38,372 bases of DNA, from contig JAFTCB010000056.1 of NCBI GenBank assembly GCA_017454905.1, positions 1 to 38,372 of the forward strand. The letters run 5' to 3'. The position numbers and the translations under genes are program-made. Every line of letters begins with the position of its first letter. Position 1 is the first letter of the stretch. Of the stretch, positions 15,522-34,800 are shown piece by piece. The DNA is from Bacteroidales bacterium. GTDB taxonomy: Bacteria; Bacteroidota; Bacteroidia; Bacteroidales; UBA932. The notes beneath the pieces are model-generated. The model did not search any database. It was given only the letters and a program-made list of their open reading frames with translations, and was not told the DNA's origin.

Positions 15522-17993
15522 ATGATGGATAAAGTGAACACGATCTTGGAAGAGTTGAATGACGAGCAGAAAAAAGCCGTCTGTTGTGTGGATGGCCCGG
15601 TGCTGATCGTAGCGGGGGCGGGATCCGGGAAGACGCGCGTGCTGACCAGCCGCGTGGCCTATATCCTGGCTTTGCAGGAGAATGCCCGCATCCTGGCGCT
15701 GACCTTCACCAAGAAGGCGGCCGGAGAGATGAAGGAGCGGATCGCTTCCATGGTGGGGGACCGCAACGTGCGCCGGGTGGTGATGGGGACTTTCCACGCC
15801 GTGTTCGTGCGCTTCCTGCGTGAGTACGCTGCGTCGCTCGGATATCCCGAGAACTTCACCATCTACGACACCTCGGATTCGCAGAGTGCGGTCAAGGCCT
15901 GCCTCAAGGAGATGGGACTTGACGACAAGATCTATAAGCCCCGGGATGTCCTGTCCCGGATCTCCAAGGCCAAGAACAACCTGATCACGGTGAACGCCTA
16001 CCTGGCGAGCCAGGAGCTCCAGACGGAGGACTACCATGCCAAGAAACCGCGTCTGGGAGAAGTATACAAACTGTACCAGCAGAAGCTCAAGCAGAGCGGG
16101 GTGATGGATTTCGATGACATCCTGCTGAACATGAACTACCTGCTGCGGGACAACCCGGAGGCGCTGCACGCCATCGCTGACCGGTTCACGCACATCATGG
16201 TGGACGAGTACCAGGATACCAATGCCGCCCAGTACCTGATCCTCAAGAAACTGGCGCAGTTCCGGCGCAACATCTGCGTCGTGGGTGACGACAGCCAGTC
16301 TATCTATGCCTTCCGCGGGGCCAAGATCGAGAATATCCTGAATTTCAAGAAAGACTATCCCGAGTGCAAGCTCTTCCGCCTGGAACGCAATTACCGTTCT
16401 ACCCAGGTGATCGTGGACGCGGCCAATTCCCTGATCGCCCACAATGAGGGGCGTATCCCCAAGGAGTGCTACGCGATGGGAGAAAACGGGGAGCCGATCA
16501 AACTGCTCAAGGCCTATACGGAGCAGGAGGAGGCGGTGATGATCGTCTCCGGAATCCTGGACCGGATGCGGACGGAGCGTGCGCAGTATCAGGATTTTGC
16601 GATCCTCTACCGGACCAATTCGCAGTCGCGTGCGCTGGAGGAACAGCTCCGCCGGCGCAACATCCCCTATATGATTTATTCCGGCAATTCCTTCTTCGAC
16701 CGGGCCGAGGTCAAGGATATGATGGCCTATTTCAAGCTGGTCGTCAACCCGCGGGATGACGAATCTTTCCGGCGGGTGGTCAACAAGCCTGCGCGCGGGA
16801 TCGGGGACAAGGCGATGGCCACGGTGGAGGCGGTTGCGCTCCAGCAGGGCTGCCCGCTGTCGGAAGCGGCGCGCGAAGTGCCCAAGGTGCAGGCTTTCCT
16901 GACCCTGATCGCCAGACTGCACGCCCTGGTGCCGGTGACGGATGCGCATGAACTTGCGCGCAAGATTGCGGAGGAAAGCGGCTTGTATGCTTTCTATAAG
17001 CTGGATACCTCCATTGAAGGGATGTCCCGCCTGGCCAACCTGGACGAACTGCTGAACAGCGTGGCGCAGTTCATCGAGGAGCGGGAGGAAGAAGCGGAGG
17101 ATTACGTGGCCGAAGGCGGCCAGATGGACCTGGTCCGTCTGGATGACTTCCTGGAAAATGTCTCGCTGCTGAGCAATGTCGATGTGACCGAGGATGAAGA
17201 TACCAACAACAAAGTCGCGCTGATGACCGTCCACTCTTCGAAGGGACTGGAGTTCCCGTATGTGTATGTGGCGGGGATGGAGGAGAACCTTTTCCCGAGC
17301 ACGACGATGCTGTCCGCGCGTTCCGAAGTCGAGGAGGAGCGGCGGCTTTTCTATGTGGCCGTCACGCGGGCCAAGCGGGCGGTCGCCCTGGCCTTTGCCG
17401 GGACGCGGATGCGCAACGGCAAGCATGAGTCCAATGCCCCCTCGCGCTTCCTCCGGGAGATCGATCCGCAGTATATCGAGAATCCGCTGGAGGATGCCGA
17501 CTTCGACAACAGCGGCGTGACGCATGAGTGGGGCGGTTTCGGTTCCCGCTTTACCGGAGGAAGATTGAATCGATTCGGGGGAGGCAATAGCAGCTATGGC
17601 CGATCTTCTGACGTCCAATATGAACGGAAGGACACCGGCCGCCGGTTTGGCCAGCAGCCCTCGATGGGCGTAGCCACCCATGGCTTCGTAAATGGGAGGG
17701 GCCCGCAGCCGCAGGCTGTGGGAGGGATGAGGCCGAAGGCCGAACCCATTCGGGGGCTGGCTGGCCAACCGGCGGCCGGTGTCCGACAGACCTTGGCCGA
17801 TGCGGATTTCGTGGGGGTGCCGATGACGGAACTGTCAGTAGGACAGCGGATAGAACATAACCGTTTCGGCTTGGGAACCATCCTTGAACTCTCCGGACGC
17901 GCTCCTGAAATGAAGGCGAAGATCCGCTTCGACGTCCATGGCGAGAAACTGCTCCTGCTCAAATACGCGAAGATCAGGCCGGCGAAGGCCTGA
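15522..17993 (+). CDS. uvrD: UvrD/PcrA-type superfamily 1 DNA helicase
   Basis: ATP-dependent 3'-5' DNA helicase used in excision and mismatch repair and in clearing recombination intermediates. It has 823 residues. All SF1A motifs are visible: Walker A AGAGSGKTR near 31-38, AFTFTKKAAGEMKER-like motif Ia (here ALTFTKKAAGEM), DEYQDTN near 228, GDDSQSIYAFRGA near 258, RLERNYRSTQ near 287, VALMTVHSSKGLEFPYVYVAG near 565 (motif V; split over the conserved TVHSSKG) and EEERRLFYVAVTRAK near 605. The C-terminal tail is Gly/Arg-rich and ends in a compact domain (VGQRIEHNRFGLGTI). The linker between them, residues about 704-755, is encoded by a GC-rich palindromic element that keeps the frame open. 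ATGs at 15522 and 15525 are both possible starts. PcrA/UvrD naming within Bacteroidetes is loose. Confidence 0.93.
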   Translation: MMDKVNTILEELNDEQKKAVCCVDGPVLIVAGAGSGKTRVLTSRVAYILALQENARILALTFTKKAAGEMKERIASMVGDRNVRRVVMGTFHAVFVRFLREYAASLGYPENFTIYDTSDSQSAVKACLKEMGLDDKIYKPRDVLSRISKAKNNLITVNAYLASQELQTEDYHAKKPRLGEVYKLYQQKLKQSGVMDFDDILLNMNYLLRDNPEALHAIADRFTHIMVDEYQDTNAAQYLILKKLAQFRRNICVVGDDSQSIYAFRGAKIENILNFKKDYPECKLFRLERNYRSTQVIVDAANSLIAHNEGRIPKECYAMGENGEPIKLLKAYTEQEEAVMIVSGILDRMRTERAQYQDFAILYRTNSQSRALEEQLRRRNIPYMIYSGNSFFDRAEVKDMMAYFKLVVNPRDDESFRRVVNKPARGIGDKAMATVEAVALQQGCPLSEAAREVPKVQAFLTLIARLHALVPVTDAHELARKIAEESGLYAFYKLDTSIEGMSRLANLDELLNSVAQFIEEREEEAEDYVAEGGQMDLVRLDDFLENVSLLSNVDVTEDEDTNNKVALMTVHSSKGLEFPYVYVAGMEENLFPSTTMLSARSEVEEERRLFYVAVTRAKRAVALAFAGTRMRNGKHESNAPSRFLREIDPQYIENPLEDADFDNSGVTHEWGGFGSRFTGGRLNRFGGGNSSYGRSSDVQYERKDTGRRFGQQPSMGVATHGFVNGRGPQPQAVGGMRPKAEPIRGLAGQPAAGVRQTLADADFVGVPMTELSVGQRIEHNRFGLGTILELSGRAPEMKAKIRFDVHGEKLLLLKYAKIRPAKA
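17630..17784. repeat. 155-bp palindromic GC-rich element inside the uvrD-like gene
   Basis: Arms of 34 nt (17630-17663 and 17751-17784) are inverted copies. The first 16 bases pair perfectly, and the rest pair with two one-base offsets and one mismatch. Inside lie further hairpins: 17664-17670 with 17675-17681 (one mismatch), CAGCC/GGCTG at 17706-17718, GGCC/GGCC at 17731-17741, and AATGGG/CCCATT at 17691-17696 with 17745-17750. The element stays in frame and encodes a Gly/Pro/Gln-rich stretch. No clear target-site duplication is seen. It looks like a mobile palindromic unit (REPIN, MITE or coding palindromic element), but only one copy is in the window. Confidence 0.75.
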
Positions 17994-31846: not shown

Positions 31847-34800
31847 TTAGAAACCGATGTTGACACCGAAGACAAAACCGCGGTTGAAGGAAGTCCCACC
31901 GAACTCGGCATCCATCCAGAAAGCGTTCTGGAAGATGGAGAACGGGTTCTTGAGCTGTGCGCTGAGTTTGACGTTGCTCAGACCGATGTTGTTCACGAAA
32001 TTCTTCGGGAGGCTATAGGCGATGGAAATCTGGCGGACCTTCAGGTAGGAGGCGTCGTTCTGGAAGCGGATGCCGGAGAAGGAGTCGCCGCCAGCCGTGT
32101 TGAAGTACGGACGCTGGTACATCTTGGCGTTGACCGTCGTGTTGTTATCGTTCCAGTAGCTCATCGAGCGGACAGGTTCGCGGCCGCCCTGGTACTCACC
32201 GTGCTGGGCGACGAAGCCGAGGTTGCCGTAGATGAAGATGCTGGCTTCCCAGTTCTTGTACGTGAAGGTGTTGGTGAAACCGATATTCCACAGCGGCCGG
32301 GTGTTGCCGATGATGACACGGTCGTAGTTGGAGTCGATCTTATAATCCGGTTTTCCTTCGGGACCGCTGATGTCCACGGGCTTGACCATACCAGGCTCGA
32401 ACTTGTGGCCGTTGGCATTGAATTTTTCCATTTCGGCGAGATCGGCGGCTGAGTTGGTCCACAGGCCGTCAGACTTGTATCCGTAGAGGACCTTGATGGG
32501 CTGGCCGATGAAGAGGTTGCTGCCGACCATGTCTTCCTTGCCGCTCTGGAGCTCGAGGATCTTGTCCTTGACGAAGGAGACGTTGAGCGTGGAGCGCCAG
32601 GAGAAGTCGCGGTTGTTGATGTTGATGGTGTTGAGGGTGAGGTCGAAACCGCGGTTCATGGTCTTTCCGACGTTGTCCTTCGTGGAGGTGAAGCCGGAGA
32701 TGGACGGCAGGGAGACATTGAAGATCAAGCCGTTGGTGTACATCTGGAAGAGGTCGATCACACCGCTGATGCGGCCTTTGAGGACGGAGAAGTCGACACC
32801 GATGTTGTACTGCTGGGTTGTCTCCCAGGTGATGTTCTTGTTGGCGAAGGAACTAGGCATATAATAGACCGTCTGCCCCTGGTTGCCGCTGACGGCGATA
32901 CCGCTGGTCAGGATGTCCTTGGTGGCGTAGGCGCCGACGGAATAGTTGCCGGTCATACCCCATCCGGCGCGGAGCTTGAGCTGGTCGATCCAGCGCACGT
33001 CCTGCATCCAGGGCTCCTGGTCCATTCTCCAGGCGAGGGAGACGGAGGGGAAGCCATGCCATTTGCGGCCGTCGCCGAGCTGGGAGGCGCCGTCATAACG
33101 GTAGGTGACCGTGGCGATGTACTTGTCCTTATAGGAATAGTTCACGCGGGCCATGTAGGAGGCGAGCTGGGTCTCGGTGAGGGTGTTGTAGTCCGGGGAG
33201 TTCAGCGTGCCGACAGACTTGGAGTTGAGGCCCCACCATTTCTGGTCCCATCCCATGAAGACACCGGTGCCGCTCATGTTGTAGAGGCGGGTGTTCATGT
33301 TGGACATGGCTTCCTGGAGGAGGGTCACGCCGATGCTGTGGTCACCGAAGGTGCGGGCGTAGTTGATGGTGTTGTCCAGCACCCAGTCGAAGTACTTGGT
33401 GGCGTTGGAGCTCACGTAGTCCTGTCCCTGGGAGATACGGTTGACGGACTCGGTGGACAGGTAGCGGTAGCTCTGGTTGAAACGGAGCTGCGGTCCGAAG
33501 TTGGAACGGAAGGTCAGGCCCTTGAGCGGCTCCCACATCTGACCGAAGTCGAATTGGGCGTAGAAGCTGGCTGACACATCGTACCGGAGGTTGGAAACGG
33601 CGGATTTGCCGACTTCATCGATGACGGTCGGGATGGTGGAATCGCCGCCCGGATAGATGATACGGTTGCCGTCGGCATCATAAGGAAGGGCGTAAGTGAA
33701 GATGTTGCGGCCCTTGCCGTGCAATGAGGAAGGAATGCTGGAAGAGATGGCATTGCCGTTATCGATACCGTATTCCTGGTCGGAGAAGCGAGCCGTGAGG
33801 GCGCCGCCCATCTTGAACCATTTGACCGGGTTGACGTCGACGTTGGTGCGGATGGTGTAACGGGTGTATTCCTGGCCGATGTTGGTACCCTTGTTGTTGA
33901 GGTAACCGATGGAGACATAGGCGTTCATCTTGTCGGTACCGCCGGAAGCGCTCAGGGAGTGCTCCTGGGTGACGCCGATGCGGTCGGTGAACTGGGTCCA
34001 GTCGGTGGAGGTCACCTTGGAGGGATCCCAGCTGCTGGAGGTAGCGCCGGAAGCCCACTGGTCGTAGGTCAGGCCCCAGCCCTTGAGGATGTTGGCCCAG
34101 GCCGTGGCGTCATCACCATAGGCGGTGAAGAGCTTGCGGTCGTTCTCGACGGTCGGCTGGTCGGCGCGGGGACCGAGGCCGGCATAGTAGTAACCCCAGC
34201 GGCGCCACTCGATGTATTCCTGTGCGTTCATCATGGGGACGACGTCGTAGATCTTCTCGGCCGTGACAGTGCCGGAGTAGTTGAGGGTAAGGCGGTCCTT
34301 GGTACCGCGCTTGGTGGTGATGAGGATGACGCCGTTGCCACCCATGGCACCGTAGATGGCGGTGGCGGAAGCGTCCTTGAGCACCTGGATATCCTGGATA
34401 TCCTGCGGGTTGAGCATATCCATGCCGATGTTCTTGGAGATCACGCCGTCGATGACGATGAGCGGGGCGTTGTTGGCGTCGGTGGTGGAGTTGATACCAC
34501 GGATGGTGATGCTTCCGACCTGTCCCGGACGTTCATTGGAAGTGATGTAGACACCGGCCGCCTTGCCCTGGAGGGCTTCCACGGCGTTGTTGGCCGGATT
34601 GGAGAGGAGTTGCTCGGAATTGACCGAAACCATGGCGCCGGTGACATCGCTCTTGCGCATCGTACCGTAACCGACGGCGACGGCCTCTTCGAGCAGGAGG
34701 CTGTCATCCTGAAGGGTGACGTTCATGGAAGCGGCGGCATTCACGCGGACGGTGACATAGCCGATGCAGGAGACCTCGAGGGTCGTGCCGGGAGCGACGC

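Follow-up and report, generated by a model that had tools for sequence, protein, structure and literature searches.

The window analysed here, the whole stretch of 38,372 nucleotides from a Bacteroidales bacterium, contains on its plus strand an open reading frame of 823 residues (15522..17993) that, by its domain match, encodes a UvrD/PcrA-type helicase. The UvrD N and UvrD C domains occupy residues 12-625 and a PcrA/UvrD tudor domain occupies residues 773-818. In the linker leading from UvrD C to the tudor domain lies a palindromic unit, arms and core together (17630..17784, plus strand). Its two inverted arms are 35 nt each (left arm, 17630..17664; right arm, 17750..17784; both plus strand), are 83% complementary and enclose 85 nt; a search of this genome gave no further convincing match for the left arm. 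RNA folding of 17625-17789 gives -115.4 kcal/mol, lower than every one of 200 shuffles (mean -76.05, sd 4.24, z -9.28). An earlier note, made from the letters of this DNA, had proposed a palindrome at this place with arms of 34 nt about 87 nt apart, set in the linker after the helicase core, and both the palindrome and its placement are real. The note had also counted about 52 codons added in frame: the reading frame is indeed open throughout the unit, but its 155 bp do not divide evenly by three.

Next to the left arm, a conserved core (17666..17728, plus strand) matches the covariance model R1 with 77.3 bits. On the same strand, helix A (17672..17685) pairs AGCC at 17672-17675 with GGCT at 17682-17685, and helix B (17677..17696), interleaved with helix A, pairs CCCAT at 17677-17681 with ATGGG at 17692-17696; covariation and pair counts identify both as the helices of a pseudoknot. 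A core hairpin follows (17702..17722, plus strand; 17702-17710 with 17714-17722), identified by fold and covariation, and adjoining the core is a small hairpin predicted by the fold, GGCC-GAA-GGCC (17731..17741, plus strand), which is different or missing in other copies. The covariance search of the window returned a second, weak R1 match at 34330-34390 (13.2 bits, E 0.093), which is probably due to chance.

The UvrD linker is variable in both length and sequence across orthologues. This would leave room for a palindrome that arose by chance, a reading whose probability we consider negligible in view of the fold energy, the dispersed copies of the core and the covariation described below; the existence of a family refutes it. 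The nearest UvrD in the 37 genomes compared, that of G014, is 90% identical in protein and has no core match. Its linker, of 26 residues against 63 here, is only 37 residues shorter. G014 therefore fails as a clean empty site, and with the linker being hypervariable we dropped the UvrD copy as a dated insertion. A linker conserved without palindromic DNA, which the note had named as evidence against its proposal, was not found among the orthologues.

The recurring unit in this genome is the inner core (17666-17728), not the 155-bp palindrome. A genome search with a 175-nt region returned the full locus and partial matches, the best of which cover positions 50-119 of the query, that is, the core, while the arms of the UvrD copy gave only short weak matches elsewhere. 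The unit of 155 bp put forward in the earlier note thus stands as a palindrome, but what is repeated is the core, and the arms are mostly private to each copy. DNA of the window matched 26 of 61 genomes at E<=0.001, all 26 of them of the same genus, and none of 24 genomes of other families at that threshold. R1 is a covariance model of the 61-position core built on an alignment of 24 cores (A1). When 121 genomes of the genus were searched with it at E<=1e-4, with at most 44 matches scored per genome, 104 gave matches; this genome has 15, and other genomes have as many as 43. The core is therefore not confined to one copy. These counts, together with the in-frame copies and empty orthologous sites described below, support the earlier proposal that this lineage has a mobile repeat family able to insert into coding sequence.

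In named genomes, the core pattern was found in at least 120 stretches; among the 80 matches listed, 3 belong to Candidatus Cryptobacteroides and the remainder to Bacteroidales, Bacteroidia or Bacteroidaceae metagenome-assembled genomes, many of them titled after ruminants or other animals. Judging from the names of these matching records, the host genus is most likely Cryptobacteroides. The core had no match in plasmids or phages, and none in viral contigs, which were scanned with one exact pattern. A literature search, with subscription journals and preprints outside its scope, found no earlier report of the R1 family among the papers listed, as judged by title. A second palindromic family was also seen, with the core GACATGCCACCCCCGGC..GGGGG..GGGGGTC and arms that again differ between copies (L319:1656, L363:2697 on the minus strand, L325:437, L270:1626 on the minus strand, and L157:1446 and 2292); the sequence at L450:4287 seems to fall between this family and R1.

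Throughout the R1 family the core, ~60-70 nt long, has one architecture: an H-type pseudoknot, built of two helices that interleave (one pairing GCC-type with GGC-type, the other CCCNN with NNGGG), and after it the hairpin, with the small hairpin as an optional addition. Pairing holds in 92.6% of the cells in the alignment of 24 cores. Cells with changes on both sides number 66, where shuffles average 21.9 and 0 of 500 reached as high. A larger set came from 100 chosen sources, whose 106 matches contain 98 distinct cores. Here, 386 of 392 helix A pairs are Watson-Crick, a helix that lay outside the model to which the alignment was fitted; in the two elements that were fitted, whose counts therefore lean towards pairing, 488 of 490 helix B pairs are Watson-Crick, and the 845 hairpin pairs divide into 682 Watson-Crick, 71 G-U, 10 A-C and 82 other. 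G-U makes up only 3 of the 882 pairs in the pseudoknot helices, a scarcity of a degree that is unusual for a selected RNA fold. The pseudoknot is thus almost strictly Watson-Crick, which makes DNA at least as likely as RNA to be the relevant fold, and suggests that the folded form relevant to spread is single-stranded DNA. Unlike the pseudoknot, the core hairpin and the arms tolerate G-U: in the hairpin it is found largely at one position, the fourth pair being G-U in 15 of the 24 aligned cores, and among arm mismatches G-U outnumbers A-C by 186 to 105 (198/207 distinct arms). This excess, together with the hairpin G-U, hints at some RNA-level constraint, although a modest one.

Considering these pairings, it could be that the transcript itself acts, for example as an mRNA stabiliser, a terminator or a small ribozyme, and that pseudoknot and arms are selected in RNA. 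The covariation of an H-type pseudoknot, the complementarity that the arms keep through change and the distribution of G-U in arms and hairpin would all fit such a role. Nevertheless, we regard it as unlikely, since G-U is nearly absent from the pseudoknot, the core occurs in either orientation at one and the same site, relatives have empty sites, and 40 of the 61 copies spanned by an open reading frame run antisense to it. Likewise, no Rfam family matched the element at gathering score; two matches there were weak and far below it, and the sole match in the window is a tRNA elsewhere.

Comparison of orthologous spacers revealed sites that are filled in one species and empty in others. The spacer between carA and carB holds an element in G089 and only a few bases in G025 and G020. 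A second spacer of G089 is filled there and empty in seven relatives, and a spacer of G025 is filled there and empty in two. For a spacer filled in G007, the site is empty in three relatives that align to it on either side, and three more show the right flank only. Where G022 and G070 share an element in a spacer, G128 has adjoining stop and start codons at the same place, and where G026 holds an element, G071 has a short spacer. Neither arm is present in the empty alleles compared. Such empty orthologous sites are the pattern of a mobile element, although any single empty site may reflect loss instead of gain. No clear target duplication was seen by eye at these comparisons, in which the spacers are strongly diverged, and a non-exhaustive search found no parent transposon. 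In some of the spacers filled in one species, other species have a terminator-like hairpin or a member of a different palindromic family.

In addition to spacers, the element is found in frame within predicted open reading frames, namely those of RlmI, an RlmB/TrmH-type protein, TrmB, RsmE, KsgA, TilS, RNase R, MurB, YgiQ and an Fmt-type protein (10 proteins named by NCBIfam, some with scores below the curated cut-off). Among the 181 copies with enough flank (29 more lie too near an end), a long open frame extending 200 nt to both sides spans 61, compared with 292 of 597 random positions; genes are thus avoided, yet they are far from closed to the element. The 61 copies comprise 40 antisense to the frame, as noted above, and 21 in sense. 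A search of four ortholog sets (UvrD, RNase R, MurB and KsgA) gave 22 R1 matches in 74 loci. In UvrD these place the core in this genome (G000) and in G004 (antisense), and a separate scan also showed it in UvrD of G142 (L120); in RNase R it is antisense in G014, G142, G081, G108 and G008 and sense in G131; in MurB it is found in G007, in G033 and weakly in G062; the remaining matches lie in or near KsgA.

Several further observations were made while reading these genes. At first sight, many of the in-frame copies read lie in genes for RNA modification or RNA processing. TrmB of this genome (L007) shows two elements by eye, one N-terminal and a degenerate one further on. The MurB loop that has the element in G007 contains other in-frame repeats in G031 (L154), G023 (L157) and G079 (L156), encoding peptides of the CHSERSEESF and RHCEEQVN types.

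The apparent mobility of the family raises the matter of what moves it. One candidate is the REPIN/RAYT system, in which a tyrosine (Y1/HUH) transposase would recognise the cores as REP-like hairpins in folded single-stranded DNA and move them. The near-strict Watson-Crick pseudoknot fits a DNA fold of this kind, and Y1_Tnp scores above its cut-off in 58 of the 121 genus genomes, this one included, in proteins mostly of ~300-350 aa with few per genome, which we take to be RAYT-like. Some core variants start with CGTAG, near the GTAG tag of REPs (PMC3733652); this tag is not invariant in the R1 family, where CGTGG, CATAG and others occur. The earlier note had pointed to a REP-associated transposase as something to look for, and here such a link is not supported: the core was found at 0 of 40 RAYT-like loci, made up of 30 searched at E up to 0.1 and 10 further regions at E up to 1. 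Moreover, G026, G004 and G028, whose assemblies are 72-92% complete, carry copies but no Y1 match at threshold. We thus hold a RAYT as the mover to be possible but doubtful. As a separate observation, the RAYT-like gene of this genome (L483:1785-2714, minus strand) has long hairpins on both sides, at 1712-1783 and 2878-2921, which have the sequence AACCTTCGGAG in common and do not contain the R1 core.

The arms behave differently from the core. They are ~20-40 nt long, complementary to each other and mostly different from copy to copy. In a rank test on 211 distinct copies with intact helix B, some orthologues among them, the cognate right arm was the best of 211 partners for 156 left arms, ranked among the three best for 192, and fell in the upper 5% for 204; this per-copy test took the place of an earlier one that used duplex energies and a pooled threshold (146 of 211 copies). 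At arm positions 13-24 from the core, copies whose cores are 90-95% identical agree at 35%, compared with 29% for copies whose cores are 60-70% identical; the innermost 12 arm positions are more alike, at 47%. In G007, four copies with identical cores have different arms, 47-80% identical in gapped alignment where shuffled arms reach a mean of 60% and a 95th percentile of 73%: four of the six pairs are no more alike than shuffled arms, and two lie at or above the 95th percentile. Such privacy is not universal, because copies within G088 and within G033 share their arms, L137 of G088 being an exception.

Since identical cores in G007 are accompanied by differing arms, drift alone is a poor fit, and the arms may arise or change at insertion. 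It is possible that only the pseudoknot core is inherited, and that fold-back copying, the inverse copying of some sequence, gives each insertion a fresh pair of arms; at a later stage the core would flip and the arms would be rewritten by template switching. The G007 arms, the matching of each arm to its own partner only and the host-derived inverse copies in KsgA described below are in line with this. If the copied sequence were the target, the empty orthologous sites compared should contain one of the arms, and they contain neither; as a general rule, arms that are an inverted copy of the target site were rejected on this ground. Nor was another template found: in a search at E<0.05 of seven genomes, of 58-91% completeness, 15 arms of G007, G089 and G025 matched only where they themselves lie. 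With arms shared between copies in G088 and G033, and some likeness kept in two of the six G007 pairs, we consider an origin of the arms at insertion to be tentative and rather improbable.

The site in KsgA is informative for how the arms change after insertion. The relevant loop is readable in 16 genomes, of which 8 have clear elements, G128 has a degenerate one, G000 has a remnant by eye and the others have none. The arms of the eight species differ from each other and are complementary within each, with 169 of 200 cells paired. Double changes occur at 21 of 25 arm pairs. By cell, both partners differ in 39 cases and one partner in 5, and 31 cells are unpaired; 0 of 500 shuffles, a control that leaves relatedness in place, gave as high a count. 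This test, from which G128 was left out, uses eight related rows, which are few; slid controls reached at most 46% paired. Mirrored change of the arms was also found in RNase R of G014, G142 and G081.

The orientation of the core varies at the same sites. Three KsgA genes (G120, G070 and G022) have it in sense and five (G014, G081, G088, G131 and G026) in antisense, and in a tree of the rest of the protein, whose support is weak, each of the two clades contains both orientations. Some of the KsgA elements may have been inserted independently, in place of one element that flips. Opposite orientations were also seen at RsmE (G022 and G070), in the spacer before pyrF (G007 and G089) and in a spacer of G007 and G079, where the arms are unrelated. 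Taken together, mirrored arm changes and a core lying in both orientations are what template switching at inverted repeats would leave behind.

In addition, KsgA contains inverse copies of its own codons. In G088, codons of a conserved motif have an inverted copy of 18/18 bases 24 nt upstream; the copy has 16 bases in G142 and 14 in G131 and G026, and in G134, G014, G000 and G120 it has 8-10 bases at other offsets. We take this inverse copying of host codons, which does not involve the core, as independent evidence of template switching at KsgA. The VLEIGPG codons and the adjoining inverted copy form an in-frame palindrome, perfect or near-perfect, without the core in G142 (L510) and G088 (L506). 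The KsgA loop also holds, in frame, a third repeat, which contains GAGCGAAGCGAC as well as G runs and C runs; it lies beside the R1 element in G088 (L506), G131 (L508) and G026 (L518), and also in G103 (L509).

We propose that the unit in the helicase gene is a copy of a non-autonomous mobile palindromic repeat whose arms then evolve by template switching, a reading to which we give a probability of about two in three. Copies of the core would be spread by a transposition machinery, and in-frame insertions would survive in variable protein loops, the core being readable without stops. Once settled, the two arms would form an inverted repeat where the polymerase may change template during replication, as the pattern of change suggests. 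Such a switch would copy changes from arm to arm, giving fast drift of the arms with complementarity kept; it could also copy host sequence in inverse, and it could flip the core.

The best-known palindromic elements inserted in frame are those of Rickettsia. The R1 family works like the Rickettsia palindromic elements (RPEs), REPs and MITEs, but we do not assign it to any of them: the GTAG tag, the RAYT linkage and the shared ends do not hold for it, and RPEs were compared by description. RPEs are described (PMC10969869) as palindromic, ~150 bp long, divided into several families and inserted in frame in unrelated metabolic genes. By description, the likeness that the earlier note had drawn holds, the R1 element being a palindromic repeat of ~150 bp with many copies per genome and in-frame insertion in unrelated genes. 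Unlike RPEs, the family belongs to another phylum, has a conserved pseudoknot core that occurs in both orientations at one site, and has arms that are mostly private and change in concert. With REPs and REPINs mobilised by RAYTs, it has in common that the palindromes are short, numerous and in some cases within genes, and that Y1-type proteins are encoded in a part of the host genomes; it differs in its variable tag, in the absence of the core near the Y1 genes examined and in its arms, which are longer than the 5-13 bp given for the stems of GTAG REPs (PMC3733652). MITEs are small, have inverted-repeat ends and make in-frame fusions (PMC10969869), and R1 elements resemble them in these respects and in being apparently non-autonomous; unlike those of MITEs, their ends mostly have no shared terminal repeat, except among the copies of G088 and among those of G033.

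For template switching at inverted repeats, arm homogenisation and spacer inversion are the two recorded outcomes (PMC8604942). The R1 family resembles such quasipalindromes in that its two arms change together; its core is found in both orientations at KsgA and RNase R, which may reflect spacer inversion or independent insertion. The spacer inversions compared from the table of that source are of 3-5 bp and from yeast, whereas here a whole core of ~70 nt would be concerned, in bacteria.

In this large family of a Bacteroidales genus from animal guts, sites in different states, whether empty, filled, filled in the opposite orientation or degenerate, would allow the entry of the element and the reshaping of the protein to be measured. 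Identical cores with different arms pose a testable question on the origin of the arms. The family would also document, in nature and on an evolutionary time scale, how templates are switched at inverted repeats.
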